Shown here: one piece after another, positions 418 through 59,693 of the stretch
How the letters are laid out: each line of letters starts with the position of its first letter
Position numbering within the stretch: the stretch's first letter is position 1
Origin: Buxus sempervirens
Taxonomy: Eukaryota; Streptophyta; Magnoliopsida; Buxales; Buxaceae
DNA length: 64,000 bases
Assembly: GCA_947561395.2 (NCBI GenBank)
Contig: OX387187.1
Span: forward strand, 23,107,829-23,171,828
Direction: 5' to 3'
Program-made: the position numbers and the translations under genes
Notes under the pieces: model-generated
The model's database searches: none
What the model saw: only the letters and a program-made list of their open reading frames with translations
Told to the model about the DNA's origin: nothing

Positions 418-867
418 TGTAGCAACCCAGATCCGGGTCTGCCCTATCACAGCACCAACCCGCACCCAAGACCTACTTATGGGCCCAATAGAACCTGATA
501 AACACAATTTCCTGGGAAATTACAATGTAATTATCAGAGTGCATGACTAAAGAAGCATGGAATAAAAATTTTCCATATAATCAAAAGATCATCTGTACTA
601 TAATCTCCAAAACATGATATACATGTGAACAAAATACAACTAAGGCAACTAACCATTCACAATGATCTCCCCAAAATATATAGATAAGTACAAAAGATTC
701 TTCCAAGAGTATAAGTCCAAAAATATTATTTACATCCTATATACAATCCCCAAGACAAAATACATCATCATAATAAGAGCCCTACTACAGGTAGAAATGG
801 TAGCCCTCTAGCCTTTACTCAAGCTCACCCTCAATAACTGCCCCGGTACGCGGCTCACCAAGCGGAT

Positions 868-929
868 CTGAAAACAAATCCGGTAAAACAAAACACGCAT
901 GAGACTTAAAGTCCCAGTAAGCAGCAAAC
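868..929 (-). other. Hairpin and 3'-splice-like block of LTR A
   Basis: On the minus strand this reads GTTTGCTGCTTAC, then a hairpin GGGACTT-AAGTCTC, a T-rich tract and TTTTCAG. The first 13 bases can pair with the 5'-splice-like motif at 2845-2833, 12 Watson-Crick pairs and one G-T pair. The hairpin stem differs from the GAGATA/TATCTC of other copies but still pairs. Confidence 0.7.
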
Positions 930-1124
930 ATGCATGCAGAGAAATAGTTTATGCAATTTTGTAACATCATGATAATATTCACAAGTATAAGATACCAAAT
1001 GTAAACCAAAACATCTCAAACAGATATAAAGTGTAATTCCAAGTCAAATATCTCAATCGGGTAATTCATGAAATCCAATCAACAGTTCCAAGTCAAATGT
1101 CCAAATCAGATTAATGATCGCTGT

Positions 1125-1360
1125 CCAAGATTAAGGCCAAGCGGAGTATTTCAACACTGCCGACGCACTCAAGGCCAAGTGGAGTACTTCTACACCGCGG
1201 ACGAAATCAAGGCCAAGTGGAGTACTTCTACACCGCCGACGCATCAAAGCCAAGTGGAATACCTCTACGCTGCCCGATGACTCAAGGCCAAGTGGAGTAC
1301 TTCTACGCTGCCCGATGAATCAAGGCTGAGCGGAGTACTTCTACACTGCCCCGATTCATG
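1125..1360. repeat. Tandem repeat, about 38 bp, five to six units
   Basis: The units share the core AAGGCCAAGTGGAGTACTTC and a variable tail (ACACCGCCGACG, ACGCTGCCCGATG). This is the short-tandem-repeat module that every LTR of this group carries between the GGATCC palindrome and the hairpin. Here the array lies between the GGATCC site at about 1424 and the hairpin at 901-915. Confidence 0.85.
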
Positions 1361-1496
1361 AAAACCAAAGTCAATCAAACGAGTACCATGAAGCCAATAC
1401 CAACACACTAATTAGACTCACTGTGGATCCACACTAAGAGCAATGTCCAATTAGACGACTCATAAATCATAACAAACCATTCAATTCTAAGAGTAA

Positions 1497-1614
1497 AACC
1501 AAAGTCAAGTGGAATTCCCCATCCACTACCAATTCATGCCAAGGGCAAGTGGAATTCCCCATCCACTTCCAATTCATGCCAAGGGCAAGTGGAATTCCCC
1601 ATCCACTTCTAGTT
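1497..1614. repeat. Tandem repeat, about 45 bp, three units
   Basis: Units carry AAGTGGAATTCCCCATCCAC followed by a short variable spacer ending in CCAATTCATGCC. It lies within solo LTR A, on the other side of the GGATCC site from the 38-bp array. Confidence 0.85.
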
Positions 1615-3003
1615 AAACCATAGGCCATATAAAGGTTTTTTTCAATATTGATTTCATAAATCCAAGCCAAATCAAAACGAAGGTCGTAAAATCCTCAAAA
1701 CACATTTTCGATGAGTGGGTTGATCTTAAAAATCCCAAATAAGTCACCATACCAAAATTCAATAGATTCCGAGACAAAAAGTTTTGGACCTTAAAAATAT
1801 TCCAAGTCTGGTTGAAAACGTTGACTTTTCAGTGTCGAATTTTTCTAGACAAATCTACAAGGAGTTTGGGGCTCAATTTCTGGTTGTAGTCTATTGAAGG
1901 GTATACAAATCATCTAGAATTTTCTGGGCTTCTGAATCACTCATTTGGATATCAAACTCAAAAAGTGGCCATTTTTGAAAATCGGGAAATCTGGAAATTT
2001 AGGCACAAACTGAAAAGTTGACTTTTTATTGGTTGGGAATTGGGCCTTGAGAGTATTTTTATTGGTTCCAAATGGGGGGTAAAACCTTATTTACATGTAA
2101 AGACTTAAGTAAATGGAGCAATAAATACACAGGACAAGGGTGCTATGCGAAAAGCTTGGGTTGTATGAGAAAGGGTTGTGGAGCACAAGGGTGAAGAGTT
2201 CTCAAAAACAAGATTCAACGCACGGACGTTGAGGTTTGGACGTTCGGGCGTTGAGGTAATACACAAAGGCAGCGCGCGCGCGTTAAGGAATTAAACGAGG
2301 CAGCGTGCGCGCTCTGAGGGTTGACGTTCGCACGCTAAGGCAATGGACGTGCGCGCGCTGAGGTTTAGCGTGCGCGCGCTAAGGCTCTAGATTAATCGCC
2401 CAAGTTAATCCTGAGCCGCGATTTAAAATAACAGAGCCTAGTTTTTAGGGTTTTGGCTCAGGATTAATTGTTAAATTTCAGGATTAATCGCAAGGTCGGG
2501 ATTCTGAAAGATTTTGACTATTTTCAACACAAAACTCATGGAAATTATTTCCAACACTTCCAACATCAAATAGGATTATCATAAAACATCCCAACATGCT
2601 TTAAAACACTTTCCAAACCAAAGATTCATCTCAAATCTCAAACCCTAATCTGAAATATAATCAATAGGGCTGGAAATCCATGGCAAATCAATAGAAGATT
2701 AAACAAGAGTATCATATCATCAAAACCCACGAATTTTAGAAGCAAATAGCAACATGCAAGATCATTTCTTCAAATAAATCAAACCCTAAAGAGAGAGAAT
2801 ACGAATTTTAGTAATTCATTTTGTTTTGAAGGGTTTGCTACTTACATGCTAATGGAAAAACTCAACTTCTCTTCAAGCTCTTCTCTCCTTCTTCTTCTTC
2901 CTCTTGAAGTTTCAAACAAACTCCCACACTTTCCCTCTTGTTTCATACGACCAAGACAAGAGAAATGGGTTTGCAAAACACTTAATTAGAAATTAGGGCA
3001 TCC

Positions 3004-3010
3004 TTTTATA
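3004..3010 (-). promoter_or_regulatory. TATA box of solo LTR A
   Basis: TTTTATA here gives TATAAAA on the minus strand, about 160 bp upstream of the 5'-splice-like motif, the same order seen in LTRs C, I and K. Confidence 0.5.
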
Positions 3011-3059
3011 TGCCTAAGTTTTGGGTCTTTCAAATCTGCCCCCAAACCAAGCTTTTATT

Positions 3060-4190
3060 TAACTAAATCCTAGGGTGTACCTAAGGCATACCAGGGGTAC
3101 CTTAGTGTCATTCGAGTGGGGTACCTTGGTATTAAGTGGGGTTCCTTAGTGTTAAGTGGGGTGTTTGCCTGAGTCACTTCAAAAGGCATGTTTTAGAAAT
3201 GCTTGGGAGGTGTACCTCAGTTAACACAAAAGGGTACCTCAGTTATACGAGGGGTACTTTAGTTATTTGAGGAGGTACCTTGATGTTTCAAAGGATTTAC
3301 CTTAGTCATTCTAAGGGGGTAAACTTTGAATAAGCTTAGGGGGTGTACTTCAGTTATATTGAGGAGGGTACTTAACTATAGAAGAGGTGTACTTTAGTTA
3401 TATAAGGGGTTATACCTTCAGCAAAACAATGCGGGGTTACCTTACTTATATAGGGTTTACTTTAGTTAAACAAAGGGGGTACTTTGGCTATATAGGGGGT
3501 GTACCCTAAGTAAAACAGTGGGGTGTACCTTACTTATATGAGAGGAGTACCTCTAGGAAATACAAGGGTGTACCCTAGGTAATATAAGGGATGTACCTTA
3601 GAAATGTAAAGGGATACTCTAGTTATACAAAGGGGGTACCCTAACTATATAAGGGATTATACCTTAGGCAAAACACAGGGGTACCTTAGGCAAACACAAG
3701 GGGGATACCTTAGGTAAACACAGGGGTACCTTAGGCAATTAAAGTAGGGTACCTTAGGGATACAAGTGGGGTACCTTAGGTATAATTGAGGGGTACTTTA
3801 AGTAACACTTGGGTGGTACCTTGGGTAATACTTGAGCATACCTTGGGCACTCAATCGGGGTACCTTAGGAAATACTTGGGTGTACCTTGGGTATAGAAGT
3901 AGGGTACCTGGGGTATACTTGAGAGGTTATTTGGGTATTCTTGAGAGATACTTAAGGTACACTTGAGAGGTACCTTGGGCATTCTTAAGAGTTACTTTGA
4001 GTATTCTTAGAGGATAATTTGGGTACACTTGGGAGGTACCTTGGGTACTCTTAGGAGTTACTTTAAGTATTCTTGGGAGTATTTTGGGTATACATGGGTA
4101 TACACTAGTGTTATCCGGGAGGGTACCTGGGGTAAACTTTAGGGTACCTTGGGTATACTTGGGAATTACTCTAGGTACACATAAGTCCAA
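3060..4190. repeat. GGTACC-rich minisatellite in U3 of LTR A
   Basis: More than thirty degenerate units of roughly 20-35 bp share GGGTACCTTAGG followed by a variable AT-rich stretch and a G run. Part of it reads open on the minus strand (3927-4217) only because the unit lacks stops in one frame. It sits upstream of the LTR TATA box, so it would be promoter-proximal enhancer-like DNA if the LTR is active. Confidence 0.9.
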
Positions 4191-4442
4191 TTTTTCAGAA
4201 TTTGATTTCCAATTCATTTAAGCAAATTGGAGAGTATCTTAGACAATTGGAATTTAGAAATAACATTAATTAAACTTACTTCAATAACCTTCATAACATT
4301 CATTTGATTCCTCTAAATCCTCAAGAATAATCCACATTTACCTCATCTTCATAACACAAATACTTAATTAGTCTAATAATCACACTTTGGATAATTAATC
4401 TTAATAATTAAATTATAATCCGAGTCGGGGTTTTACAGTGCA

Positions 4443-5831
4443 CATTTTGCTAAATTAGAATGTTGAGACACTTTTAGACCCAAATTCTTCTAGAACAAGC
4501 TTTTATTGATTCCACCATTTGTAACACTTCTTAAATATCATGCTTAAGGTGTCTCAGAAGGCCAATTATAGTAAAGAGTTCATATTAAGTAGTTGTCCAC
4601 CTTATCCATGAGTTGGTAGTTTTTTTTTGGGAATTTAAGGAGTATCTTAGGATATAAGTTTCACTGGTAGGAATTCTACATAGGTATCTCTCATACTACA
4701 TTATTAGCAAGAGTTTAATCCTGTGAGCACATATTCCTAGTCATATTTGAGAATTTGAATTGTTGACTTGGTTTTGAATTATTTGTTTTGCATCGGATTG
4801 ATTGGTTTTTTGCATGAGTTTGGTTTTATGGTGAATCCTCTTACTCAGAAATAGAAAGTTGTTTTATTAACATGAATGAGTTGTCATACAAACAGTTTTT
4901 AGAAAGTGAGTTTCCTTGAAAGATATGAATTTGTGAATCTCCATGATGGAGTGAATTTGGTCATGAGTGACCCATGGATTGTATTGAACTATTTTGAATA
5001 CTTGTGGATTTGTTTACAAGCTATTGGTTGAGCTTGCCTTGGATCCATGACTAAGCTTAGTAATGCAATTTTCTTCCTTCATTGGTGTAATGGCATGGCC
5101 TTGAGTGTTGCCACGACCGGGTTGTCAATGCCAAAACCCGGGGAGTAGGCCAACATTGGATGACAAAACCCTGAGTAGGCCGTCATTTCAGAGTTCTGAA
5201 ACCCTGAGTAAGTCGGAACTATGTACATGGAGGTGTGGATGTCACCTTGGCATGTCGATTACCCAATCTAAGCAAAATACGTGACATTAACCATGATATG
5301 AATTGTTAACTGTTGCTGTTGGACACTTGAGTATCTTTATCACTGAGATTATGCTGATTTTGGATTTCTATGGTATTTGTATGGTTTACTCGTAATTGGT
5401 TATTATTCGTGGCATGATTTAGAACTGATATGAACTATTTTAGCATGCATGTGCTACTTGCTGGGATATTTGTATCTCATCCATTTTGTTTTGGTTTTGT
5501 TTTCAGATACTTGTGGTGAGGCGATTGTTGGGGTAGATCCTTTCGGCACATATAGGGAGGAGGATTACTTTTATACTTCTTAGACTAGTAGGTTTATTCC
5601 TTGTATTGAGCTATTGTTGATATTCGGAAATTTAATAATTGGTATCAGATTTTATTGACTGATGGAAATTGTTGAATTGAATAAATTCCGCGCTTCCATA
5701 GTAGTTATTGTTGCACTCTGATTGTAAAACCCATATGATTCATCTAGCAATCATATGAGTCATGGGTCCATATTTAACCCCTGTGAGACATGTTATATCT
5801 TTATTGAACAACACAGATCCGGAGCGTTACA
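4443..5831 (+). mobile_element. LTR copy B, right part
   Basis: It continues the LTR interrupted by A. It contains the GGATCCATG anchor (about 5040), a variable module built on words such as CCGGGGAGTAGGCC (5100-5230), the hairpin block, and the terminus GGAGCGTTACA at 5821-5831. No PBS follows, so it looks like a solo LTR, though its start is outside the window. Confidence 0.75.
5452..5506 (+). other. Hairpin and 3'-splice-like block of LTR B
   Basis: TGCTACTTGC is followed by hairpin GGGATA-TTTG-TATCTC (5463-5478, one G-T pair) and a T-rich tract ending TTTTCAG at 5506. The expected 5' partner would lie upstream of the window. Confidence 0.65.
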
Positions 5832-8164: not shown

Positions 8165-9289
8165 GGGAAGTTTTAGGGAGGTGTTAGGGTTTCTTCTAAT
8201 CAAATCATATAGAGGAAAATGATGACAAAAGAGGGCTCTCACATTTGGGGAATTTATAGAGAGAAAGTGCTGTAGAAATTTCTAACCAGCATTCATCCAA
8301 TTGCAATCTAGAAAGATTCAACTGTTGGATTGGCCTCAAATTTGGGAATTTTGTCCATGACTGGTGGAGCTTCAATCTGGATAGTATCAGAATCTCAGCA
8401 ATAAATTGAAGAGAAGGATTTTGCATTGAGGCAAGTAGTAACACCTCGGTTTGTTTAATCGTTGCATGATTTTTGGTTTAATCTGGAATTAATGTATGAT
8501 GATTGAGATGCTTAACCATGTATTTTATACAATATATTTTGTGGTTTTAATTGATCATGGATAGGGTTTATGAGAACTTTCAAGCATGCTTAAAATATTG
8601 ATTTTATTCAGGTTTTGATTTAGATTTTTTGTAAATATATATTTAGATGTGTTTCAAATGATCTAACATGTTTAGAGGTTAAAAATATATGATCTAGAAG
8701 TGATTTGAGGAGTTGGTTTGATGTTATTTAGATTTAGAATGAAATTTTGCTAATTAAAGAAAAACCTAGAATTTGCGATTTTGTATGAGCGCCTGACATG
8801 TTAAATAAGGGAGTGCTAGATAGGTCACTTGAGCACCCTATTGAGCGCCCAAACCTAAATTTTCTGATTTTGTGAAATATACCTAGATTTTTACTATAAA
8901 ATGATTTTTAGACAGATCAAACATATGTACAAATAATATTTGGGTGTTTATGAGTTGTTTTTAGTGGTCAATTAATTTTTGTAAAAATTATACAAAGTTT
9001 TGGGTACGTTCTACTGAAATATATTTTGTTATGACTTGAAAGAGAGTTTTGGTTCTAGAATTTGTTTAAAATCAATTTGGTTGATTTCTACACCTGTAAA
9101 ACATTGTTTTAAACGTGATTCAAGTTTTGTAATTGATCTAAGTACTTTATAACAGATTATAGTACGTTGAGCCTATGTTTTGAAATATAATAAATATTGG
9201 AAAGAGGTTTTATATTATTAATTGAACATGGACAAACTACTTTATATACGAAATTTGGATTGTGGATTTATGCTCTTCTATGTATCATG

Positions 9290-10015: not shown

Positions 10016-10297
10016 ACCCGAAGATGAGCTTTAATATCTAATTATAAATGATTTTATTTCTTTTAAATAGAAAGAGATTGATCGATCGGTTTAGCCATGT
10101 TTTGACAAGAACGGTTTTATAAAGAAATATTAAAATGACATGATTAATATGATGAATCTGTATTAATTTGAGGAAATATTAGATTTGATTTATACAGATT
10201 TGTCTTCTTGTTATAGCGATACTTGTGATATTATTTTGCAAGTTATGAAAAGTTTGTAAATAATATGTATATATAAACTATTTTCTTTCATGCATGT

Positions 10298-10352
10298 TGC
10301 TACTTGCTGAGATTTTATATCTCATTCTTGCTTTTTAAATGTTTGTTTCTAG
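10298..10352 (+). other. Hairpin and 3'-splice-like block of LTR C
   Basis: CTACTTGC at 10300-10307 pairs over 8 bases with GCAAGTAG at 8431-8438. It is followed by hairpin GAGAT-loop-ATCTC (10309-10323) and a T-rich tract ending TTTCTAG at 10352. Confidence 0.65.
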
Positions 10353-10747: not shown

Positions 10748-13532
10748 ATAGGGAGATCTGGAAATTAGGGGGGAAAGGAAGAGGAGAGTTAGTTTTCAAG
10801 AGAACGATATGGATTGCAGTGGTGATCAGAAAGGGGGATCTAATATGATCGTTAGCTCTGTTGAAATAGCAGAGAAATGATCTTATGGCAGCAGCTCCAA
10901 AACGTCCAGGAGCAGAAATTTCAGCCAATTAAATCAAATTTCAGGTAAGATTTGTTTAGTTAGGTTAAAAATTCTTTGAGTTTAGCAGAAAAATTCGATC
11001 CAAGGAGATCTGATCCGGAAGATTAAAATTTCTGCAGTAGGTTCATACGATCAGATTTTGGTGATAATATTGCAAAACTGCAATGGATAACTTGAGGATT
11101 TGATCAGCTCAAATTGCTTCTATGAGGTAAGTAGCACTCCTAATTTTGGTTTAGAATGATTCAATAGAAGTGTAGTATCATATGAGCACATAGATTGCTG
11201 ATTCCCTTGTTTTTGGTTATCAATTGCGCCTAGATCATGGTAGAGTGTTTATATGCTTAAATTAAATTCAATCTCATGTTAAATAACTTTTTAGGGAATT
11301 AGAATCATGTTGGAAGTAATGTGAATGTGAATTATTAGGTCATGGATTTCCGGGTTTTTATGTTAGAGATTGCTGAAATTTTGATGGGAAGAAGGATGGG
11401 CAGCTGATCCATGTTAGTTGGGTTCTATGTATTACTTAAATCCAAATGTGAGTTAAATGTATCTTAGAGTGTTAGAATTATTTTAGAACTAGTTTGAATT
11501 TGAAACAGTAGATCAATCATGGTGGAATTACATTAGCCGTATCATATAATAGTAGAATTGTATGGGGTGCTAAGTGTTGCTGAGGGGCGCCTACCCTCCC
11601 AGCAGCTTACTTATCAGCACTCTTGTAATTGTTTTGAATTTCTACTGTGGGAATTATTTAGGGAATTCATTTAGAAGTTATTAAAGGACTTTTGATGAAT
11701 AGGAGATACTAGAAATGGGATCAGATTGGAGGCTTCAATTAATGAATTTGGGAACCTGTTTAGGTAGGAAATATGTTTAATTAGAGAAGTGAACTTGTGA
11801 TAATATCAACTTTAGTAATTTTTGTCAAGGTGCAGGTTATATTTGGAAATAAGTAGAGACGATTAAGGGGATTGAAGTGGATAATGATATGCTGAATTAG
11901 GATTATAAATTGAATCAATGAATGTAAAGTCAGGTTATGCATAGCCATGGTGTAATGAAATTTCAGAAGTTAGGATATTGAAACTTATTTTGGTGGAGTA
12001 CACATCTAGAGTCTAGTGTAGCTGTAATAGCTGAAATTTTCAGAACTTAAAAGTGGAAATCAATGTGTGGTTTTTAGATGAATCAAAAGTGCTAAGAAAA
12101 GCATTGAGGGCTTATGTTAAGGAAGAGTGATATAAGGGAATTTACTATAGAGGAAGCTATTGTTTGAGTCTAAAATGAGTATTACAAGCTTGAACTTAGT
12201 AGTAGTATTCAACTCTGGTTTTAGCATCCGGAACTGCAAGTCTAGCCTAGAACAACACTTTTATAGAAACTTGACTCTTAAAGGGATTTTATGGAAGTTA
12301 AAGGAAAGAGCTGGTAAATTAAATATAATGGTTAATTTTGGTTATCGGATGGTGTGTTGAGCTTCTGGGAACTATAGAATTTAATACTAAATGGTTGGGT
12401 ATGAGAATGCTTATTTTTAACAAATCAGATCAGATTGGAATAAGAGAGGATGGAGTAAATTACCATGATGAAACTATAAAGGAAACTTTTATAAAATTTC
12501 ATTATTAAGCTAAATTGAGAATAATGCTGGGATTAAAAGGGAATGTAGGAAGTTATTTTGGAATTGAAAGAACTATAAGGCATTACATGTAAAAACTTAT
12601 TATATAGAATAAATTGTGTCAATAATTTTCTAAACCCATGAATACGTTTGAACCTTGAGTATTATCATTGGATTTCATCTCAGATTAGACAGGATTGTCA
12701 TGAGTATGGAATTTTTACATCAAACCGGTTTTATGTGGATTCTACAGGAAAAGGATTTTAATCTGAATAGGGATGATTGGTTTTTCTGGTTTTGAATTGG
12801 TTTTCCTCCATGTACTTGGAGAGACGGATTGAGATGCCCATGTACTTGTGTTGATGCTATACCTCCGTGTAGTCAAGGATGCCCCATGTAATTGGGATGT
12901 TGTTGCCTCTATATACTCAGAGATGCCCCATGCACTTGGGATGATATGATCGTGATTGAGATGAGTTGTGCTTGCTAGATTTCACGGTTGGCTTTAGTTT
13001 TAGATTATAGTGGGCATAGCTTGATATGGATCCATTTAGGAACTAGATAGTGGAAAGGATTGTTCTTTGTTAGTCGTAATACTTTATTCACGCACGCATT
13101 TCCACTGTATCCTCAGTGAGGCCTAATCATATACTTGGCTGGCTGTGTCTATCCCTCATTTTATCATGTACTAGAATTATGATTGGATTAGTACATGCCA
13201 ACCCATCACTGTACTGGGTGGGTTCTTCCGCAATAAGACGATGATTGTGTACTCGGCTTCGCACCTAAGCCGGGAGGTGGCATAGTGGACATTGGCATTA
13301 CCCTTGTTAAAGGCAATCTTATTTTCATGAGTCCTGCTGTGACTTATCGACTGCTAATTTGATGATACAGATTTGATTGTTATACTGGATTATTCCTGTT
13401 ATCTCATACTGATCGATGGTTTACTGTTGGATTACTCGAGTTATTCGGAACTAATGCGTTATTGCTACTGTTGCATGATTTACAACTGTATCATATTTTA
13501 GAACTAATAAACTGTATTTGAGCATGCATGTT

Positions 13533-13584
13533 CTACTTACTGAGATATTTGTATCTCATACCGTTTGTTTTGTTTTGTTTTCAG
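13533..13584 (+). other. Hairpin and 3'-splice-like block of LTR D
   Basis: CTACTTAC at 13533-13540 pairs with GTAAGTAG at 11127-11134. It is followed by hairpin GAGATA-TTTG-TATCTC and a long T/G tract ending TTTTCAG at 13584. Confidence 0.68.
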
Positions 13585-20417: not shown

Positions 20418-22814
20418 TGTCACGACCCGGAACCAAGTCTGCCCCTCCAAGGCACAACCCGTCCCAGACCGTGGCAAGTGGGCCAATACTCATGAAAAAA
20501 TACGACGGATTTTAAAACTTTTCTGTACAAGTGCAGGTGCAACAGTTTATACGTGTGCATATCAAAAGTGTGTTCTATATATAAAAGAAATGCATTAATA
20601 CACAAGAGTTAGTTACAAAAGACGGGTTACTATATCACTCCTCTCAAAGTACAAGGCTACAATCCAAAACTATACATGTATTTCAAAATAAAAGCCTAAG
20701 GCCTACAAAAGTCCTCTCAATACCCAAGGCTTTCTCTTTGCCTCTATCCCCCAGCCCGGTCATTCACACCGGACGTCGATGGATCTGAAAAATAAGAAGT
20801 AAAGCAACTGTGAGACGAATTTCTCAGTAAGCAACACATGCATGCATGAGAAAACACAATTTATGCATATATCAATCGGTTAAATCATGATATGCAGTTT
20901 ATTTGAAATTATAATCAATAATCACAGTTCAGTGCCATACAAATTGGTGCATGCTTGTGCATTAGTGTACAGTTAATGCATTTAATACAATCTTTCATCC
21001 AATCTCACAATTGGTCATACAGGTAATTTGGTATCATACTATACATCATCAATATTTCTCATCTAGCTTCACCGATTACATGCGGTGGCTAGGCATCTAC
21101 GCCGATCTTACGTGACGTAGGCATCTAATACTCTAGTTACATATGTCGTATGAGTATCCATAGATGATTACTCAATAATACTTAAGGTGGTATCACAATA
21201 CCGTTGAAAACATCAATCACAATTATTCATCTAGCTTCACCGTCTACACATGGTGGCTAGGTATCAATTACACATCCATTGCTGTCTACACATAGCCAAT
21301 GGGCATCGGCCACCGAATACACAAGGTGCCGGAATGATACTCATCCATTGCTAATTACACATAGCGAAGCATCGGCCACCGAATTCACATGGTGTTGGAA
21401 TAATGCGGTATAACACGAACAGTAACAATGGCCCTTGGCCATGGCGTATGTGTATAAACAATCCTACTTGTATAACACGAACAATGGTGAGGTTACGTTC
21501 AATACCATGTGCATCATGCACTAAGGCTTGCCGGATCTCAAGGGTAGCCTTTGGCCTTACCCGAGTCATTCTTGGGCCAAGCCCTTATTCATTACTCATG
21601 GATTCTGGGTCACTGCCCTCCATTCACTATCAATAACCTTGGGCCACTACGAGTGCCCTTTCATTCACTATCAACAACCTTGGACCACTACGGGTGCCCT
21701 CACTATAAGGGTCAAGGGAAAAGAGTTGGCTTTTCCAGAAATTCCACCTTTCGGGTCTCATTCAGGCAACCTATGCCTTAATTCTTTGATACTTGCACAA
21801 CTGGGTCTTGGATCTTGATTTCTACTTCTAAAGGTCAATTGAGAGGTGTTTGAAGTGGTGGAAACAAGTTATCCTAATCCTATAGTTCTCTGGGACAGAA
21901 ACCCCTTTGTGAGACCTTCCCTGGTAACACGTACCAAAAGACCTTGGTACTTGGAATTTCGAGATACTACCACTTGGAACACTTCCTTTACTTGAAATTC
22001 TAGCTTATACATTTGTCAGATTTGAATACAAACCATCGGTGGTCAATCTGGGCTGAAATCCTCTTTTCAGAACTTTTCTTACATTTCATGACTCTACTTG
22101 GCAATCTATGCCTCAATACTCTCGAGACTTGTGCAACTTGGGTTTGGTTCTTGTATTCAACTTCCATAGGTTATTTGAAAGGTATTTGAAGTGGCGGAAT
22201 CACTCTATCCCACTTCTATAAAAGTCTGGAACAAAATTCTCTCTATGAGACCTATTTCAGCAAAACGTACCCAAATTCTTTTCTATTTGCAATTTGGTGT
22301 GAACTCCAGTTGGAACACCTCCTAAACACTTAACTCTCACTTATACATGGGTTGGAATTGAATGAAAGCAAATGGTAATTCATTTTGCGCTCAAAACTCA
22401 AGATTTGGGAAAACAGGGCAGGGTGCTCTATAGGTCGCTCGAGCCTGCTTCGAGCGGCCATAATTTAACTCTCGGGTTCTTCTGTTGAAACAAGGCGCTA
22501 GAACAGTCACTCGAGCGATGCTCGAGTGGCCATGACTCAAAACTCTATCTAAGGCCACTTAAAACTGCTGCCTGCTGGGTTTTCTCAGCAGCTCGCGAAA
22601 TCCGATTTTCGGGGATTTAGGGTTTTTCTCAAATCTCACTTGTTTAGGGTGTTTTTGGGCTCTAATTTGCTCCTAGCATGTGTAGTTATCTACTACTAAC
22701 AAAACCAACAAGAAAAATCCCCTCTATTTACACAAATAAGCATTTTCATACTCAAACTGTAACATTTATATCTCATGCACGAAAATGGCCGAAATTTGAA
22801 ATATGGGGAGGGGT
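20418..22814 (-). mobile_element. LTR copy H, 3' part (minus strand)
   Basis: It begins TGTCACGACCCGG, the complement of a CCGGGTCGTGACA terminus, and continues beyond insertion I at 28523-29113. It has the hairpin block (20785-20837), a tandem module with words such as CACCGAATACACA (21060-21700), and CTCGAGCG words at 22430-22530. Its right terminus is GAGGTTTCACA at 29113. The flanks (AGAAA and AAAAT) do not form a clean TSD. Net length is about 3.0 kb. Confidence 0.8.
20785..20837 (-). other. Hairpin and 3'-splice-like block of LTR H
   Basis: On the minus strand GTGTTGCTTAC (20837-20827) pairs perfectly over 11 bases with GTAAGCAACAC at 28534-28524. It is followed by hairpin GAGA-loop-TCTC and a T-rich tract ending TTTTTCAG at 20785. 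Confidence 0.7.
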
Positions 22815-23087
22815 TGTAAAACCCCAGTTTTTAGTAAGAATTTAATTAAAAGATTAACTAGTAGATTTAATTAAATTAATTGTGAGTAGAGATTTCGGCC
22901 ATTAGGTAGCAAAGAATAAATTGAAATTTTATTAAGTAAGTGAGTATTTAATTTGTAGTGATTAGAAATTAATAAACAAATATTTTATGTTATCCTCAAC
23001 TTTAGGGAAGGGTAAATATGAGATTTCGATGGTTAAGTTAAGGTGAGTAATAAATCCATTAGGTTAAGGGAAGAGGGTTTCGAGGCT

Positions 23088-23094
23088 TATAAAT
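23088..23094 (+). promoter_or_regulatory. TATA box of LTR I
   Basis: TATAAAT lies about 170 bp upstream of the splice-like GTGAGTAG motif, in the same relative place as in copies C and K. Confidence 0.45.
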
Positions 23095-24573
23095 AGATTA
23101 TTAGGTTAAAATTTCGGGTTGAAGGAAAAAGAAACTAGAGGCCACGTATTTAGATTTGGCCACCGCCTGGTACCTAAGTGCGTCGGCCGATAAGCTTTGA
23201 TCTTCAGAGGAGACTATCAAAAAGGGGTTGGAAGCTAGAAGGAAATCCTCTATTCGGTGAGTAGAATCGTTTTAATTAGGTGTTTTGGTTTTGATATAAT
23301 AGTTTAGCCATGAAGCATGGTTTCAGAATAACATAGTTTTCGAGCATGAGTTATTTGATGAGATTCAGGTCGTGATATAAAGTTGTTTAAATTAAATCCG
23401 AATCATGTTTAAAAGTGTTTGGGGGATGGTAGAAGCATAGAAAGAGGTAAAAAAATATGGTCAGTCATGGAGATCTAGAGTTAACAGAGAGTCGCGTTTC
23501 GAGGGTCGGATCCGCCGAGTTGCCGCCAACCATATTACCTCAGCGGCAGCTCAGCGCGGGATTGATTTTGGATTTGCTGAGTTCTCGCCAACCTTGCGCC
23601 AACTACTTTTAGTCCGCGCGAGACACTAATTGGGTATACGCCGAGTTGGGGCCGACCTCGTGCCAAGCGCCAGAGGTTAGCACTACCACTAAAACCTGCC
23701 GAACGTTGTGTTTGACCAATCCAAGCCAATTTTTGATACTTTGAGACTTCAACCTCTTACCCAAAGACTAGATTAGGATATTAGAAATATTATATCTGTT
23801 CAAAACAATTGGGAGAGCATTAAATCAAATTCTGGGGATTTCATTAAGTTTCCAAAGTGTGAATTGAAGGAATCTGGGTAGGTTATTTGCTGTTCATGAC
23901 ACTATAAGTTAATGAGTCTGTTTTGTTTATGTATTATATTTTTTTTCTGATTATGGATTTATTTAATATGGATTTGTTTGATATCAAAGGACTAAATAGT
24001 ATTGTAAATTTCTTGTGTGAGTAAGAGGATTTTACTGCTGATGAGGTTTGTTGTTTCGGGGTTAGGATACCTACTGAAATTACATGAGTTGTTATTCTGG
24101 TTGGAATGACTTGTGATGAGTGTATTGGGATACGCATGATGGTAATCGGTGTGGGTTTATTGTTTTGCAAATACTAAGTTTTATGAAATTGTTATTTTGG
24201 TTTTGGTTTAGCTTCCCTTGGATCCATGCCTAAGCTTAGTAATGTGATGGTATTGTTTGTTGGTGTAATTGCATGGCCTTGTATGTTACCACGACCGTTC
24301 TAGAGCAACAAGATACCTTGAGTAGGCCTGGTCGTCAATGGCGATACCCGGAGTAGACCAGCATTGGATGATGATACCCTGAGTAGGCCGTCATTTCAGA
24401 GTGTCTGATACCCTGAGTAAGCCAGAACTGTGTACATAGAGGTGTGGATGTCTCCTTGGCAAGTGAATTAACCAATTTAAGCAATATACATGACATTGAA
24501 TTTCATGGTTTAATCGGCATTGTAGTTATTGTTGTGGAAAATTTTGATTGGAACTTGAATCTAAAATTCTGAA

Positions 24574-28176: not shown

Positions 28177-28262
28177 CTGAATTATTTTATTGATTTATTT
28201 GTGTTCGCTATTTATCGTGGCATGTATTTATAACTGATGATAACTATTTCTGCATGCATATG

Positions 28263-37677: not shown

Positions 37678-38135
37678 TGTAGCACCCCGGAACTAGGTCT
37701 ACCCCAGGTAGGGCACTACTGGCTCCCGAGCGCTAATTTAGGGCCCAAAGCATGATGAAAATAATCTAAAGAACTAACCAATACACTTATAATAAAATCC
37801 TAAAATTTTCAGAAAAACGGCTATATAACGCCTATAAATACAAGGCTGAGCTAAGCCCCCAATACCTGATAATCACAAGATAAACATATATATCCATTCC
37901 AAAAACTAAACCATCAAACATACACAGATATAAAATAAAGTTCACTAACTTTCACACCCTCTCTCTCTTTCTTCATTTACAACATATACAATGTACAGTT
38001 TCCACATATATTAACATATACAATTATCCAAAAATTGTTGCCTTCTCAACCTCTAATCAGGACGGTAGTAATCTTCTGGTCGATATTCAGGATAACCCTC
38101 AAACCCGGCCCCACTAGGCATTTCACCCACCGGAT

Positions 38136-38195
38136 CTGAAAACAAAACCGGTAAAACAAAAACTCGCGTGAGATTAATATCTCAATAAGTAGCAT
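38136..38195 (-). other. Hairpin and 3'-splice-like block of L 3' LTR
   Basis: On the minus strand ATGCTACTT (38195-38187) pairs over 9 bases with AAGTAGCAT (40358-40350). Hairpin GAGAT-ATTA-ATCTC (38183-38170) and a T-rich tract ending TTTTCAG follow. Confidence 0.66.
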
Positions 38196-40429
38196 AATGC
38201 AAGTTATAAACAGTTTATGCAATTTTAAATAATAAAATAACATGCTATATATCATACGATCAATTCCATCAAATCATGCAAAGAACAATTCACATATAGC
38301 AACACAATTTCAGAAAGTAAAGTGTTTGTGCAAGATTCATGAATTAGCGTGTCTGTAAATAGGGTTAACCACCCTTAGCTGGTTTTCAACTTCACTACCC
38401 GTTGTCGAAGCCATGCACGGTCATCGCACGAGTGGAGCACCCACGCATGGGCTGGCACACTGCAGCTCATCGATCCCACACGAAGGCCTCACTGATCCCA
38501 TACGGTGGTACGCAATTAGCCCGGGGTATTAACTCAACAAGCCAACACTAACGCACGATCTAGACTGACTATGGATCCACGACCAACTCTACGCGGCCTA
38601 GACTCGTATATAATCATAATAACCAGTTCAATCCTTTACTAACCAAAATCCATAAGAAACCATCTGCCATCACATTCGTTACCAAAGCCACCTTGGCTAA
38701 ACACCTCTTTTATCAACCAAGTCCAAAACATGACATCTACCCAATGCTTCCAAGCATAATAACTTAATCATTATATTTCCACACTAACCCAAACCAAATA
38801 ATTCCATCATTTCTAGGAGTTCAAATCTGAAATATTAGAAAGCATTTGAGATCTAAAAGCTTGCATCACTTCTACACAGAAGCCTTACCAAATTCTACCA
38901 TGTAAAGGAAAGTAAGTTTTTGGAATATATCTAAATTGATCTCATGAATCCTTACCTATAGTAATAACATAGAGGTTACTAGAATGATGTAAGATAACCT
39001 CTAATGATATAAAACTTCCTTTTTGGATGTTTTTATGGGTTTTAGACTCCAAATGGTATTCAGACTCCAATTGTATCAAATTTGCCATATATGCACTAGT
39101 ACTATTACATATCCCATAAATAACTCAATTATAAACTAAATCCTCTGAAATATAGTTAGTTAGCTTCCTAATGCATCCATTTACATCACCTAATAGCAAA
39201 TTTTGAAAAATAACTTTGTTAGAAAAATATGTCCAAACAAAGTAGACTTTTTAGAAAAATCTGTGCAGAAAAGTGCACAAAGAAAATATATTTTGAATGA
39301 CTAAACAATAACCTTATATTAGAAATATATTTTTAAAAGAATCTAGACTCAACACCCTACAATTGTCATAGAGTCTATCTTACCTAAATCTGTCATTTGA
39401 TAACTCCAAAAATTCACTTTTGTAGAGATTTTGGGTGTAGTCCAAAAATACCATAATCCCTACTTAATACATCCAACTTATATCCATCTACCTCAACCCA
39501 AAACTAACACTTTAGTAACATAGGTTACTCTTAAACTTATCATTCCCACAGCTTTTCTAAAGATCAGACTTAGGATAATCATTTCCAAGTCCATAACAAA
39601 CCTTCAAACACCCAAATTTAGATAGAACCTCTATAAAATGCCCAATTGTATTCCCTTTGCATGATTGAATTCTCTGATTTATATAACCACAAGGATACTT
39701 CATATACAGCAGCATAGGAGCACTAAAATCAGATTTCCTAACCATTCCTAACCACACTTTAATCACCCTAAATCTCAAATAATAATAATACTATTCTTTA
39801 TTTATGGAACAACTAAATATTTCCAGCAATAAAAACCATAATCTGAAAAGTAGAAATCTGAACCTAAACTAAAATCAGATCCTAATTTTAAGCTCTCATG
39901 CCAAATAAAAACCTAAAATCAGAACCTAGCTTAGAGTTCTCATCACAATTAATAAACAATAGAAGAGTCCAACAAAAATTTCCAGCAACAGAAATCCATC
40001 ACTAGGAATCTAACCATCACAAATTAAGGTTTTCAACTAGTCTATCGATCACCCCAATAATGGCTGATGAACAAAATTGCAACCCAACAGAATAATCTGA
40101 TTCAATCCATTTCAATCAATTTGTTTCAATCACTTTCATACAACCCTAACTAACTCATGGAGAAAACGGCAACTCCTAGCCCCAGGTGTTGTTGTAATTT
40201 GGTGAAGTCAAAAGAACCCCATGTAGACAGTCGCATGACTGCTCTGTTGGGCGTTTTATTACAACAGCAAAGGAACATAACGAGAACTAAAAGAAGTCAA
40301 CAGCAACCAATCGAAAACAACCACGATCGATTAAACAGCGGAAAAATTGATGCTACTTGCCAGATTTTGCAATCCACACACCCAATTTAGAACCAGTTGC
40401 CCAAAACAGAACCCCTTTTCTTCTTCCCT

Positions 40430-40720
40430 CTTTGTTTTTTGCATTTCCCCCCCCCCCCCCCTGTTTGATTAGCCCTCAACGAACAACCCCCTTGCTTCCC
40501 TTCTTCTTTTCTTCTTCTTCTTCTTCTCTTCTTCTCTTCCCCACGTTTTCTTCTCCTCTTCTCTTCCTCTCTTTTCTCCTCCTTCTCCTCCACTCGATTT
40601 CCCCCTTTGTGCGTTTTCTCTTGAACGACCAAAATGGACAAACACTCTTCCTCTTCTTCTTCTCCTCCGTCCCCCTTCTCTACGATTTCCCCTTGCTTTG
40701 TTTTCGTTTTCTTCTTCTAA
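40430..40720. repeat. CT-rich tract with poly(C) in L LTR
   Basis: Runs of CTT/CTC and 15 consecutive C (40447-40461) give a GA-rich RNA on the minus strand. The long ORFs on both strands here (40357-40842, 40387-40641, 40469-40750) come from this low complexity and are not genes. Confidence 0.85.
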
Positions 40721-40955
40721 CCCTAATGACCCAAACACATAAACCCCCAAATGAAAAAACGAAATTTGCTTTTGTTTTTTTTTTTTTTTCTAAACCATTG
40801 AACCAGTTCATTAACTTGAACCAAACACCATTAAACCACTAAGCTAACCAACCCAGTCAAACCAACTGGTTTAATTGAATTTTTATTCCTCTAATTGTTC
40901 TTATTTAATAAATTTTAATTGAAACTAAAATTTTCTAAAATTCCAGGGTTTTACA

Positions 40956-44276: not shown

Positions 44277-45299
44277 TGTAGCACCCCGGAACCAGGTCTA
44301 CCCCAGGTAGGGAACTACTGGCTCCCAAGCGCTAATTTAGGGCCCAAAGCGTGATGAAAATAATCTAAAGAACTAACCAATACACTTATAATAAAATCCT
44401 AAAATTTTCAGAAAAATGGCTATATAATACCTGTAAATACAAGGCTGGGCTAAGCCCCCAATACCTGATAATCACAAGATAAACATATACATCCATTCCA
44501 AAAACTAAACCATCAAACATACACAGATCTAAAATAAAGTTCACTAAGTTTCACACCCTATCTCTCTTTCTCTCTTCATTTACAACATATACAATGTACA
44601 GTTTCCAAAAATATTAACATATACAATTATCCAAAAATTTTTGCCTTCTCAACCTCTAATAAGGACGATAGTAATCTTTCGGCCGATATTCAGGATAACC
44701 CTCAAACTTGGCCCCACTACGCGTTTCACCCGCTGGATCTGAAAACAAAACCGGTAAAACAAAAAACTCGCGTGAGACTAATGTCTTAGTAAGTATCATA
44801 ATGCAAGTTATAAACAGTTTATGCAATTTTAAATAATAAAATAACATGCTACATATCATACGATCAATTCCATCAAATCATGCGAAGAATAATTCACATA
44901 TAGCAACACAATTTCAGAAAGTAAATTGTTTGTGCAAGATTCATGAATTAGAATGCCTGTAAATCGGGTTAACCACCCTTAGTTGGTTTGCCACCTCACT
45001 ACCCATCGTCGAAGCCACGCACGGTCATTGCACGAGTGGAGCACCCACGCATGGGCTGGCACACTGTAGCTCATCAATCCCACACGAAGGCCTCACCGAT
45101 CCCACACGGTGGTACGCAATTAGCCCGGGGTATTAACTCGACAAGCCAACACTAACGCACGATCTAGACTAACTGTGGATCCACGACCAACTCTATGCAG
45201 CCTAGACTCGTATAAAATCGTAATAACCAGTCCAATCCTTTACTAACAAAAACCCATAAGAAACCATCCGCCATCATATTCGTTACCAAAGCCACCTTG
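44277..45299 (-). repeat. 5' LTR of element L, truncated by CACTA
   Basis: It aligns with 37678-38697 of the 3' LTR and stops at CCACCTTG, where the CACTA end TACTACAAAAA begins. The 3' LTR continues GGCTAAACACC at this point. The remainder should lie beyond the CACTA element, outside the window. Confidence 0.9.
44739..44796 (-). other. Hairpin and 3'-splice-like block of L 5' LTR
   Basis: The hairpin on the minus strand is AAGAC-ATTA-GTCTC, against GAGAT-ATTA-ATCTC in the 3' LTR. The inner pair changed from T-A to C-G on both sides, although the outermost pair is now A-C. The 5' partner motif is cut off by the CACTA insertion. Confidence 0.6.
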
Positions 45300-55260: not shown

Positions 55261-55612
55261 GGGTAAAGAAAATCTGAGCTGACGAAATTCCCGAGCAGCA
55301 AAACCGGCAATCTGCGCACGTGGCAAAAAGCTGCACACGTGGCGAGTTGCACAGGAAAATATCTCGGGGATCAAATCCGTAAATATCCAAATATACGAAA
55401 TATCCCAGGGACAAAATCTGTAAAAATCCGAGAATATTGGATTAAACAAAAAATTGCCAGGGACTAAATCTTAATTTCCGGATTTTTTAGACAAACAAGC
55501 GGCCGCATTATATTTTTTGTCATAATTATGCCGCTCGCGCGAACGTGGCAAGCGGTATGCGCTCACCTTGAGCTGGGCGCCAAAGTGAGCGGATACCCCT
55601 TCTCCCTTGCCT

Positions 55613-55618
55613 ATATAA
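55613..55618 (+). promoter_or_regulatory. TATA box of LTR F
   Basis: GCCTATATAAGCCGCG lies downstream of the 147-bp array and upstream of the leader, in the position seen in E and M. Confidence 0.55.
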
Positions 55619-57403
55619 GCCGCGCGAGTGCTCGTGCAAAGGGGTTCGGACATTTTTTTTGGGACTGGATCATTTTTAGGGTTGGGGATTTTGGGGTTCG
55701 GGGGATCATTTGAAGGTTCGGAAAAAATTTTGGTTGGAGGATTTTAGGTGGAAAGATTTTCGGTCAGGAGCTTTTCTTGGGCAGGGGTTTTGGGTTGTTC
55801 TTCGTCAGGTTTGAGTTTCCATTAGCTCACTCCCTTTTCCTTCTTCTTCCTTCACCCGAACCCCCCCCCCCCCCCTCTCTCTTCATCCCGGCTTGCCTCC
55901 AAAAACCCCCAGACAATCTCCTCCCCTCCTTCATTCTCATCCATCTCCAATAAAGAGGTGGAAAGCTTGTGGCTGTTGGTGGAGAAAAGGGATTTTCCAA
56001 CTGCCGTCGGAGCTCCAGGGGAAGGCTACGCACCTCAAGAAAATCTCAAGCACTCTCAGGTATCACCCCTCGGCACTTTCCTTTTTTTGTCATATATATA
56101 AAAACAGATGCATGATGCCATGTTTAGGAACTTAAGTCTCTCCCCAGCTCATATTCGATGTTCATTTTCAAGGGAGTATGTTCCCTGTTACTGTTAAGTG
56201 AGTCTCATGTACCCTGTATACCCCCCTCCTCTTTCCCTTCTCTGAATCTTCCTGAGTTGAAGTAGGGATTTTAGGTTCTAAGGTTGGGTTGATTCGTAGG
56301 TGATGCATGCTAGGTAAGGATCCCACTGTCATGTTCATATAGGGTTTGCTATTCCTACTGCTGCATGCATGTGCTCTAGCTTGGGTTATCCTGCATGGTT
56401 CTTCTTGATTTCCTTGAGGGCTAGAAGCATACACACACACCCTGTGGTCTGAAATAATCTTATATGAGTTGTGCTATTTCCATTTGAATACAAGTTTAAG
56501 TGTCTTCTGGGGAGTGGTCGAAGCCCTGGGAGGGCTTACAGAGCTTAAAAAACCACTTACAGAGCTTCAAAACCTTAAAAATGGGGTTTTAAAACCAAAC
56601 AGTGAGCATCGGGTGTCCGCCGAGTTCGCGCGAAGCTCACGCCCACTTCGCGCGAAGTGAGCGCGAGCTTCGCGTAAGCGCTTTTTGCGCTTCGCGGATT
56701 TTTTCGATCCGCCCAACCCGCGCCTAGTGCCTGAGGTCGGTGCATACCCCTAAAACATGCTGAATTGCTAGATTTTTGAAAAGTTTCGAAAATACCCTTT
56801 ATCGTACAGCGGGGGCTTCGCCCCCCGCACCCCCACCCCCCTTTGTTCGCTACGCGTCCAACTAATTCCTTGGTGCAGGGAGGTACCCCACCCCGTGGGC
56901 TCCGCTTCACTCCGCCCACAGGGGCCCCGGGTACCTCCCCTTGGACCCAGCATAGTGAGTCAATCTCCCCCTGACAAGTGTCATCTTTGTATATTTTTCT
57001 ATGATTATTGCTGGATGTGAGTGCTATTTCCGAACCAAACCGGATAAACCAACAGGGTTTCCGGGTGACCCGGAAACCCAACATGGGACTTGGACCTTCG
57101 GTCCAACCTGATTTCCAGTGGACCTTCCAACGGGGCCCACCCGGCCCAATAAACATGTATGCATGCAACTTAATCAAGATAAGCAAAATTAACCAACTAA
57201 ACCGGGCGAGCCAAACTTAAGGTGGTCCACCCTAACCAAACTCGTGAAATTGATGCAAAAATTGCATGGTTTGACCGAGACCAAGGGCAAGGGCCTACCG
57301 GGCTCGCCAAAGCCCACCAACCGAACCAAGGAAGGGTGCAAACCCTAACTTCTGGCAACTTGGGTTTACAGGCCCAGATTTGGACTACGGGCCCCAAGCC
57401 CAG

Positions 57404-59693
57404 TGTAAAACCCCGAATTTTCCTTAAATAATAAATTAAATTAGTAAATAATATTACTAAGGGTTATGATTGATGGGAATATTTTATTATTGTAGGGGGT
57501 GATCAATTTAGCGGAGATCCAGAATTAGATGCAGATCTGACCGTCCGATCTTGAGATATCGAGGTATGTATTCTAATTGGGCGAGGTGTATAGGAGAGTT
57601 TGCATGGAGATACATGGGATCAGGGAGTATATATATGTATTAAATAACCTAAATCGTATTGTCGCTCGTATTACTCAACCGCAAGCGATGAAAGTTGAAC
57701 GACCGAGTTACCTTGCTCTGAGTGTTGCTTTGCAACTGAAGAGAGATTTGAGGGTTTCTGTTCAGAAGAGAAGAAGAGGAACGCGCGTATACGAGGTAGG
57801 TGACACCGTTTTGCTTTCAGAAATTTGATTTTCCCTAGTTTAATCGCAAACGCATGTTTCTATTATATGTATTGGTGTATTTAGCTAGATAAGCATGTTA
57901 TAAATACATTGGAATGAGTTTAGACGAGAAAAATCATGATTTAGAACTGTTTCTGCTCGATTTTGTATGACCGCCGACCTCGACTGTTCTCGGCGATCCT
58001 CGGCGCTGGTTAAAAAAATTAGGACGCCGTAGACCGGGAGAAGACGAACCGCGGGTGCTCGATTTTGCACTACCGCCGACTTGGGACCGCTAGGGCGATC
58101 CTAGGCGCTCTAAGCAGAAAATCCAGATTTTCATAATTTCGAACCTAATTCAATTCTAAACTATTTTTAGACAATTTTAATGATTAATTAAGGTACTATA
58201 AGACCAAAATAAACTACCTAAATCCCTGTTTTATAGAAAAATAAATTAGGGAGATATTTAGGACATTAGTCGCCAAGTTTTCAAAGGTAATTGAGAAATG
58301 TGATTTTGGAAAAGCCTAACTACACTTGATTTTCAAAACACCTCTAAATGACATTATAAATCAAAATACATTCTAAAGAGAATACAGAATTCAGATGAAC
58401 AAATATTGAAGTAAATGTACAGATATAACCATTATATGCCGCTAGGCACCAACCCTTATAGAAATATGATACTTTAGGGAAATTTTGGAGTCTAGTGGGC
58501 ATAGCTGGTTATGGATCCATAGTCGTGGCTAGATAGCTGAGAGATATGTCATTTGGGTTGAGTTACTCCTATATGCGACGCGCTTCCTTTGCAAGTTAGT
58601 TTGTCTGGGAAGGTCCTATGTCTGGAGGGACACCCCGGTGAGCCGCTGGTGATTCCCTGTACATGTGGATAAGCAACATCTCCATGTATTGATTCTGGTG
58701 CTGCATGCTGGTGGTACATGCCAACTCTGATGGGTACGTGTCCAATAAGTCGGTGACTACGGCTCTTGTCTAAGCTGCGCTGCATGGGGCTTGAGTATCA
58801 TTAGTAGCATCGCTCCTAAGTCGCACGGTGGTATAGCAATTGGTTGAGAATCATCTCAAAAGTTTTATCTATCTTTGTGAGTCCTACAATGACACTGAAA
58901 TCATAACACGTGGTATTATTGTTGTATACATGCGGGAGGCATGTGATTGAGATATTGGTCGGATGTGACTGCTTAGTACATCCTGACAATGTGTGAACTA
59001 TGTTACTGATTTGACTATTGTATTCTCATATTAAACTTGCTGAAGTTCATTTCTAGAACTGTTTATCCAACTGTTTTGTGTTAATGAATAGTATAAATGA
59101 TTATGTAAGCCTGATTAGTCGATGTTGCTTAATCGTGCATGAACTGTTACTTTACTTATATTAACTGTTTAATCATGCATGTGTTACCTACTGGGATATT
59201 CGTATCTCACCCTACTGTTATTCCATTTTTTCAGCTGATACGCGAGAGGGGGATCTCTTAGACTTCCAGGGAGAGATAGCTGAGTATTCTCCGGAGGATT
59301 ACTATTATCCAGATCTTGTCTGAGGTGGATTGTTGCTATAGACTTAGTACATTTGATTGGATTATTATTATTCATTGGATTGATGTATTGAGAGATGAGA
59401 GAGATAGTACCCAGTTATTTTACCAGACTTTGATATTACTAATTAATGGTCAAACTTTATGTCTATGTTGAGGATTTTGAACTACACTTCCGCATATACT
59501 TGTTTCCGCAACTCTGATAGTATAATAAGATAATGGATTTTGAATTATTTGGTCTGGTATGTTTTGATGTTGTATATGATATGGGCCAGTAACACCTCGG
59601 ATTTGGTTGTTGAACTAAATTGGGGTTGTTACAGTAGCGATCCGGGTTCGGGTCGGGTGCCAGTTCGCACTGATCCGGGTTCGGGGCATTACA
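57404..59693 (+). mobile_element. Solo LTR G, 2.3 kb, nested in F
   Basis: Termini TGTAAAACCCCG and CGGGGCATTACA are flanked by a perfect TSD CCCAG at 57399-57403 and 59694-59698. It has GAG/GTAGGTGACAC (57796), a GC-rich module with CCGCCGAC and CTCGGCG words (57965-58110), TGGATCCAT (58512), a variable module (58560-58850) and the hairpin block (59181-59234). No coding capacity. Confidence 0.93.
59181..59234 (+). other. Hairpin and 3'-splice-like block of LTR G
   Basis: GTGTTACCTAC (59181-59191) pairs with GTAGGTGACAC (57796-57806) over 11 bases, one of them G-T. Both sides differ from the usual sequence. Hairpin GGGATA-TTCG-TATCTC (59193-59208) and TTTTTTCAG follow. Confidence 0.7.

Follow-up and report, generated by a model that had tools for sequence, protein, structure and literature searches.

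Long terminal repeat (LTR) elements pose the standing question of how one transcript can be both messenger RNA (mRNA) and genome, and that question is raised anew by a 64,000-nucleotide (nt) stretch of Buxus sempervirens DNA (assembly GCA_947561395.2, contig OX387187.1, positions 23,107,829 to 23,171,828, forward strand), hereafter the window, a plant-like sequence that holds nested LTRs of Ty3-type elements. A first-pass annotation of the letters had noticed that in nine LTRs a 5'-splice-like motif near the promoter is complementary to a stretch just upstream of a hairpin and a 3'-splice-like site, and had proposed that RNA pairing holds together, or hides, the ends of an intron spanning most of the LTR, so that spliced RNA could serve as gag mRNA and unspliced RNA as genome. 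The results below come from this one window, with nine LTR copies for the pairing and 11 units of partner and hairpin overall. The pairing, its covariation, its register and an intron-like anatomy are all observed in these copies. What is new is that the helix starts from intron base 1 and abuts the hairpin with the branch-point match. From these observations we infer splicing, masking of the splice signals, a kinetic choice between the two and the resulting RNA fates: with a probability of roughly 0.55, diverged Ty3-type plant LTRs would carry a self-masking fold by which some of the RNA stays unspliced for use as genome.

Complementary ends of an intron-like segment in nine LTRs

All nine motif and partner pairs of the first-pass annotation were recovered at their coordinates and on their strands, and most of the pair lengths were retained; copy C was corrected to 13 positions (one G-U) instead of 8, and the full motif of L runs from 40360. 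Two further units of partner and hairpin, B and L2, were found beyond those nine, with no convincing motif for either within the window (best scores 9-15 for B and 15-16 for L2). The pair is found in 9 of 9 assessable LTRs, B and L2 (2 of the 11 units) being left out of this count. The features are listed below, with splice sites and branch points as predicted.

2833..2845, minus strand: motif of A, GT 5' splice site GTAAGTAGCAAAC
917..929, minus strand: partner of A, 13 pairs, one G-U
868..916, minus strand: hairpin (900-916), branch-point match, T-rich tract and 3' CAG of A
5451..5506, plus strand: partner, hairpin (5462-5479) and 3' CAG of B; motif not in window
8431..8443, plus strand: motif of C, GC 5' splice site, 13 pairs, one G-U
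10295..10352, plus strand: partner, hairpin, branch-point match and 3' TAG of C
11127..11134, plus strand: motif of D, GT 5' splice site, 8 consecutive pairs; weakest copy
13533..13584, plus strand: partner, hairpin, branch-point match and 3' CAG of D
23257..23264, plus strand: motif of I, GTGAGTAG, 8 pairs, one G-U
28263..28314, plus strand: partner, hairpin, branch-point match and 3' CAG of I
25502..25510, plus strand: motif of J, GC 5' splice site, 9 pairs
27934..27986, plus strand: partner, hairpin, branch-point match and 3' CAG of J
28524..28534, minus strand: motif of H, GTAAGCAACAC, 11 pairs
20785..20837, minus strand: partner (20827-20837), hairpin, branch-point match and 3' CAG of H
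31473..31483, plus strand: motif of K, GC 5' splice site, 11 pairs, one G-U
33183..33231, plus strand: partner, hairpin, branch-point match and 3' CAG of K
40350..40360, minus strand: motif of L, GCAAGTAGCAT, a G-U, a C-A mismatch, then 9 pairs
38136..38195, minus strand: partner (38185-38195), hairpin, branch-point match and 3' CAG of L
44739..44799, minus strand: partner, hairpin (44773-44788), branch-point match and 3' CAG of L2; motif not in window
57796..57806, plus strand: motif of G, GTAGGTGACAC, 11 pairs, one G-U
59181..59234, plus strand: partner, hairpin, branch-point match and 3' CAG of G

A second gagGTAAGCAAC, the same as the core of the H motif, lies at 28976-28987 on the minus strand, 450 nt upstream of that motif.

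Covariation and tests against chance

Every pair was anchored at the base preceding the hairpin, so that the first 11 positions of nine copies give 99 cells. Standard pairs fill 94 of them (88 Watson-Crick and 6 G-U), the remainder being one A-C and four others, and the 6 G-U among the non-Watson-Crick cells fit RNA rather than DNA. Both sides have changed at 6 of the 11 pairs, with 13 such cells in the helix and 14 when the hairpin is included. The pattern at base two was as first described, with T-A in A, D, G and H, C-G in C, J and K, T-G in I and a C-A mismatch in L; pair 2 is thereby of the two-sided kind (T-A/C-G), as are pair 8 (G-C/A-T, in H and G) and pair 11, which occurs in three types. 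The motif changes that the partner had been said to match are indeed matched, namely A-T/G-C at pair 3 in I, T-A/C-G at pair 6 in H and A-T/G-C at pair 4 in G. The summed score was 86 at offset 0, as against at most 14 at the 16 other offsets (-8 to +8).

When partners were re-assigned exhaustively among the copies, the observed pairing was reached by 576, 288, 720, 18 and 2 of 362,880 permutations at widths of 6, 8, 9, 11 and 13, respectively. A tree-aware null, in which the same number of partner changes was dropped on the flank tree, never reached the observed 94 (0 of 4000; mean 78.2, maximum 87). The shuffles of the covariation test reached the observed values in 0 of 500 cases for paired cells, 0 of 500 for the covariation score and 1 of 500 for two-sided pairs. 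As a set, the pairing exceeds chance. The hairpin was dropped as independent covariation evidence since it adds little: its pairing was reached by 1480 of 4000 tree-aware nulls and its Watson-Crick count by 150 of 4000, and four of its six pairs are invariant.

The motifs could also be recovered by a rule, which takes hexamers that resemble a 5' splice site, have G at -1 and lie upstream of a hairpin, and scores their anchored pairing. In a first search, 2600 nt wide (8000 for I and H, both of which contain inserts), the annotated motif came top in 8 of nine copies with scores of 16-25; the exception was A, which has T at -1. The 39 other hairpin-like sites used as controls (both strands, some overlapping) never exceeded 15, and a score of 16 was attained by one of 1500 random anchors. 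A second search masked the inserts and used equal widths for all copies; the control maxima were still 15, and the motif was top in 8 of 9 copies at 2400 nt and in 7 of 9 at 3000 and 4000 nt, where the best site for D moves to 10569. Without the rule on -1 the counts were 8, 7 and 7 of 9 at 2400, 3000 and 4000 nt; D fails at all widths, and the G motif loses at 3000 and 4000 nt to 56296, outside LTR G.

The annotation had allowed that the nine copies might be one sub-family, its two sides changing together by descent only; this proved not to be so, since flanks are 36-64% identical between different elements (94% between L and L2) and a two-sided change separates sister copies. Although the tree makes D and J sisters, both sides of pair 2 differ between them. 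At this pair C-G is found in C and K but T-A in their neighbour H, and H and G, distant in the tree, both have A-T at pair 8.

Other results speak against the fold, or at least against some copies of it. Shuffled partners equalled the observed score at some site in the region in 0 (A), 1 (C), 8 (H), 5 (K) and 6 (G) of 300 cases, as against 56 (J), 104 (I), 176 (D) and 248 (L). Taken singly, D, I, J and L are not significant, which leaves A, C, H, K and G as the copies that stand out. Among all 11 partners, a copy's own one ranked first, alone or tied, for A, C, H and G only, because many copies share near-identical sides and the differing copies carry the signal. Shuffles reached the observed number of further pair types in 277 of 500 cases. 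When pairing was not anchored, the motif was the top match within 9 kb in five of nine copies only (A, H, J, K and L), and in D two other sites score equal to or higher than the motif; D is a doubtful copy. An origin by chance or shared descent, in which both sides were inherited together or picked by eye, would draw on the copies that fail singly and on the 4 of 9 with a best or tied partner, as well as on a tree that is weak, resting on short, poorly alignable flanks and nine sequences only. We regard it as extremely improbable in view of the permutations, the tree-aware null, the covariation shuffles, the anchored recovery against 39 control hairpins, the two-sided difference between sisters at pair 2 and the change at pair 8 in distant copies.

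Three rival sites were set aside. The D site at 10569 (score 18, as against 17 for the motif) seems to lie inside the tail of LTR C, and the G site at 56296 (15 pairs) lies upstream of the LTR G start. A candidate L2 motif at 52607 (10 pairs) lacks G at -1, and its surroundings are unlike those of the L motif. Upstream of LTR G, the sequence GTAGGTGATGCATGC at 56290-56310 is complementary to the G partner over 15 positions, by chance or as a relic of an LTR.

Intron-like anatomy

The proposed segment of 1.4-2.5 kb with covarying paired ends does exist in several LTR families; that it is an intron is suggested by the following sequence features. Intron lengths are 1439-2485 nt, nested inserts excluded. 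The 5' site is GT or GC with a match to U1 in 9 of 9 copies, five of them GT and four GC (C, J, K and L, all GCAAGT), and position -1, which the helix does not include, is G in 8 of 9 (P 0.00026). The branch-point consensus is YTNAY about 18-40 nt before the AG. The 3' arm of the hairpin ends with CTCA, followed by T or C, which in all 11 units matches YTNAY, 23-34 nt before the AG, a match to which the hairpin itself contributes, the CTCA being also required by it and only the base after the CTCA independent. A T-rich tract and YAG follow in all 11 units. The predicted exon 2 starts are 867, 5507, 10353, 13585, 20784, 27987, 28315, 33232, 38135, 44738 and 59235.

Composition changes at the 5' end as well. 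The T content rises from 0.22-0.32 in the 130 nt before the 5' site, which are 54-68% purine, to 0.33-0.43 in the 130 nt after it in all eight measurable copies, H being left out because only 18 nt precede the site before its insert; the final 150 nt of all nine introns have T of 0.41-0.49. In A, C, I, K and G a TATA-like box precedes the 5' site, which gives a predicted exon 1 of 134-525 nt in these copies. ATG occurs 11.1 times per kb in exon 1 (five copies) as against 25.7 in the introns (nine copies), and 19.5 times per kb in exon 2 (six copies, including D with its doubtful LTR end at 14122; 13805 is also end-like). Rfam gave no match at gathering score in the window, and no group I or group II self-splicing intron was recognised there. 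A search with pieces of exon 2 from the 11 units for LTRs lacking the intron gave no match (E <= 0.001) farther than 260 nt from a unit, which is a weak test because the units were found by their hairpin. Taken together, the anatomy fits a GT/GC-AG, U2-type spliceosomal intron that would fill most of the LTR.

Read in the frame G|NN, the sequence past the 3' splice site yields peptides of 9-29 amino acids that show some likeness (D-x-x-G-E; EDYYxPD in L and G). A coding exon 2 was dropped, as a stop immediately precedes the junction in C, D and J and exon 1 of I has no ATG; the likeness may reflect an exonic enhancer or relic coding.

A palindrome, GCATGCA/CATGCATG, precedes the partner by no more than a few bases in 9 of 11 units (for example 13522-13530; absent in L and L2) and is possibly a dimer contact or a regulatory site. 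As a dimer contact it might fit a conserved RNA fold with another job, such as packaging, dimerisation or export, in which the likeness to splice sites is incidental. Such a fold would have no need of G at -1, a well-spaced branch-point match, YAG in 11 of 11 units or a step in composition, and we consider it decidedly improbable.

Geometry of the proposed fold and its possible competition with U1

The helix starts at intron base 1 in 8 of nine copies; in L, pair 1 is G-U and pair 2 is mismatched. It abuts the hairpin, intron base 1 pairing with the base directly before it, and the last pair of the hairpin contains the branch-point A in all units. A helix from base 1 and a hairpin with the branch-point A mean that the fold, if formed, covers branch point and 5' splice site alike. 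Coaxial stacking of the two helices would be possible and would bring G1 next to the branch-point A. By computed duplex energy, pairing with the partner is stronger than pairing with the 5' end of U1 in 8 of nine copies, in seven by 5-11 kcal/mol and in I by 0.2, for 13 bases of partner duplex and 11 of U1, values that ignore the closure of a kilobase loop, U1 proteins and RNA modification. The GC copies lose U1 pairing at +2, and C, J and K gain a C-G pair there, which would tilt them to the closed form.

These positions bear on whether the pairing holds the intron ends together or hides them. A helix that brings the ends of a long intron together could aid splicing, with U1 and U2 displacing the pairs when they act; the length of 1.4-2.5 kb would suit this, and G1 is set directly beside the branch-point A, its paired base lying 38-49 nt before the last base of the intron in nine copies. 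The helix, however, lies on the 5' splice site, not beside it, the branch-point A is inside the hairpin, and partner pairing is computed to be stronger than U1 pairing in 8 of 9, which makes such an aid to splicing rather unlikely. Of the two functions first proposed, hiding fits better than holding together because the helix sits on the U1 site and the branch-point match lies in the hairpin.

A proposed switch between spliced and unspliced RNA

We suggest that a GT/GC-AG intron of 1.4-2.5 kb lies between a purine-rich exon 1, past the promoter, and an exon 2 near the LTR end, and that intron bases +1 to between +8 and +13 would pair with the stretch before the hairpin, blocking U1 and the branch-point machinery. 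The 5' splice site would be transcribed 1.4-2.5 kb ahead of its partner, and nascent RNA would meet U1 first. Early capture by U1 would lead to spliced RNA and mRNA, and RNA that escapes U1 would fold shut, stay unspliced and become the template of reverse transcription. The 3' LTR would lack an exon near the cap, and closure would prevail there, giving an unspliced end. The template must stay unspliced because the copying of spliced RNA would yield LTRs without the intron. All 11 units keep the 3' part of the intron, though units were found by that part; both LTRs of the L element (L and L2) keep it, which suggests that the template of that element was unspliced there.

Several features weigh against such a switch. 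Pairing to U1 is the stronger in D (-12.3 as against -10.2 kcal/mol for the partner) and nearly equal in I (-11.0 as against -11.2), so that masking cannot be uniform. Exon 2 has T of 0.23-0.43, and the T step at the 3' side is missing in some copies (0.43 on both sides in D). Exon 2 also retains 3-10 ATGs in I, J, K, L and G, whose LTR ends are sure, and splicing would thus leave no clean leader.

A tentative extension of the self-masking fold, possible though not probable, is that the elements carry stand-ins for U1, in the strand over intron +1 onward, and for branch-point docking, in the hairpin, with G1 and the branch A facing each other across a coaxial junction. Such a double lock might set the shares of spliced mRNA and unspliced genome lineage-wide. 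In the lariat the 2'-5' bond would lie next to the helix, which could protect it against debranching and leave a stable circle of R sequence.

If the self-masking fold is real, a covarying fold on both splice signals of an LTR intron would be a sequence-encoded and testable switch in plant elements, and it would help explain the survival of introns in LTRs despite the loss that copying of spliced RNA would entail. Partner, hairpin and CAG together would be a marker to find such LTRs.

Comparison with known systems

Where ordinary introns have terminal complementarity, it bridges the ends, usually beside and not on the splice signals; the LTRs described here share the pairing across the intron, but their pairing is on the splice signals. 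Abbink and Berkhout reportedly dealt in 2008 with structure at the HIV-1 major splice donor. As in the proposal made here, an RNA fold in the HIV-1 leader sorts transcripts into genome and mRNA; it involves a short leader and a start-site switch, and kilobase pairing of intron ends is not described in the part of that account available to us (PMC11331132).

Among plant elements, BARE1 is likewise an LTR retrotransposon with separate RNA pools, one of them spliced (Gag-only), and its intron is U-rich, U-richness being a mark of plant introns; its intron is, however, 104 nt long and lies at the gag end, and neither an LTR intron nor terminal pairing is described in the sections available (PMC3735527). 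EVADE and Ogre are further plant LTR retrotransposons with functional introns, and in EVADE, unlike here, splicing removes the protease domain, according to a 2025 review in which plant elements are generally intronless, such cases excepted (PMC12786077). BARE1 and EVADE both splice in coding regions. Searches of the open literature, partial in coverage and including a narrow phrase search, brought up no account of a plant LTR intron whose ends pair, which does not establish its absence from print.

Foamy virus offers a related arrangement. A 5' splice site lies in R, U1 there suppresses the 5' poly(A) site and structure is said to block U1 at the 3' LTR (PMC3694450). The likeness is a 5' splice site inside the LTR, at both RNA ends; the differences are that the donor-region folds of foamy virus differ between the two LTRs, whereas here a distant partner, a branch-point match and a 3' splice site are in the same LTR (PMC3694450). 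The same arrangement, an LTR 5' splice site under RNA structure, makes this a precedent for a choice of poly(A) site in the Buxus LTRs, where U1 on the 5' splice site in R would suppress poly(A) in the 5' LTR, the fold would keep U1 off the 3' LTR, where cleavage would then take place, and splicing would be secondary. A partner 1.4-2.5 kb away does not suit it, it needs neither the branch-point match nor the 3' splice site that all 11 units retain, and in foamy virus 462 nt of added distance relieved the suppression (PMC3694450); we find such a choice improbable here.

Outside the window, searches of viral contigs with DNA patterns and the gag peptide gave no matches, and DNA patterns in genome contigs gave two loci in bacterial records, without a convincing motif and taken as chance. 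A protein search with the protease gave no match at E <= 0.001, and one with gag matched one Lupinus protein.

The LTR elements and their surroundings

LTRs A, G, I, J, K and L begin with TGTAAAA and end with TTACA, TTATA or CTACA. The marks of a Ty3-type LTR retrotransposon are present, namely LTR termini, a 5-bp target-site duplication (TSD), a primer-binding site, gag and protease.

418..4437, minus strand: LTR A, solo, TSD TGCAC, by reading; apparently inserted in LTR B, which it seems to split
22815..28517, plus strand: LTR I, TSD GGGGT; solo LTR J nested inside, I itself within LTR H
24574..28176, plus strand: LTR J, solo, TSD CTGAA
30181..33487, plus strand: LTR K, solo, TSD ATATA, in AT-rich surroundings
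37678..40955, minus strand: LTR L, taken as 3' LTR; the 5' LTR of the element is L2, ending at 44277 beside tggtatcagagc
57404..59693, plus strand: LTR G, solo, TSD CCCAG

Element L carries gag (PF03732, Ty3_capsid) and protease (RVP_2). We take tggtatcagagc, adjoining the L2 end, to be a Met-tRNA primer site, and the lineage may be the Tekay/Del chromoviruses. No pol was seen by eye between the L and L2 LTRs (40956-44276, minus strand) among stop-to-stop frames of at least 90 amino acids, and the element is probably non-autonomous. The likeness of L2 to L ends at 45299, where a CACTA-like end was read. A CACTA-type element (Transposase_21), from about 45302 to beyond 51439 on the minus strand, seems to be inserted in LTR L2.

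About 1 kb of degenerate GGTACCTTAG-like tandem repeats (3080-4180) lies upstream of the TATA-like box of LTR A. Some 60 nt after the LTR C 3' splice site (10376-10440) recur, slightly altered, at 13806-13870, directly past the apparent end of LTR D, a recurrence much longer than a TSD. A 147-bp tandem array occupies 54461-55342 and has related copies at 20047-20396 and 60733-61088, one pair being inverted and 40 kb apart. A LINE-like first open reading frame with DUF4283 lies at 61803-63302.

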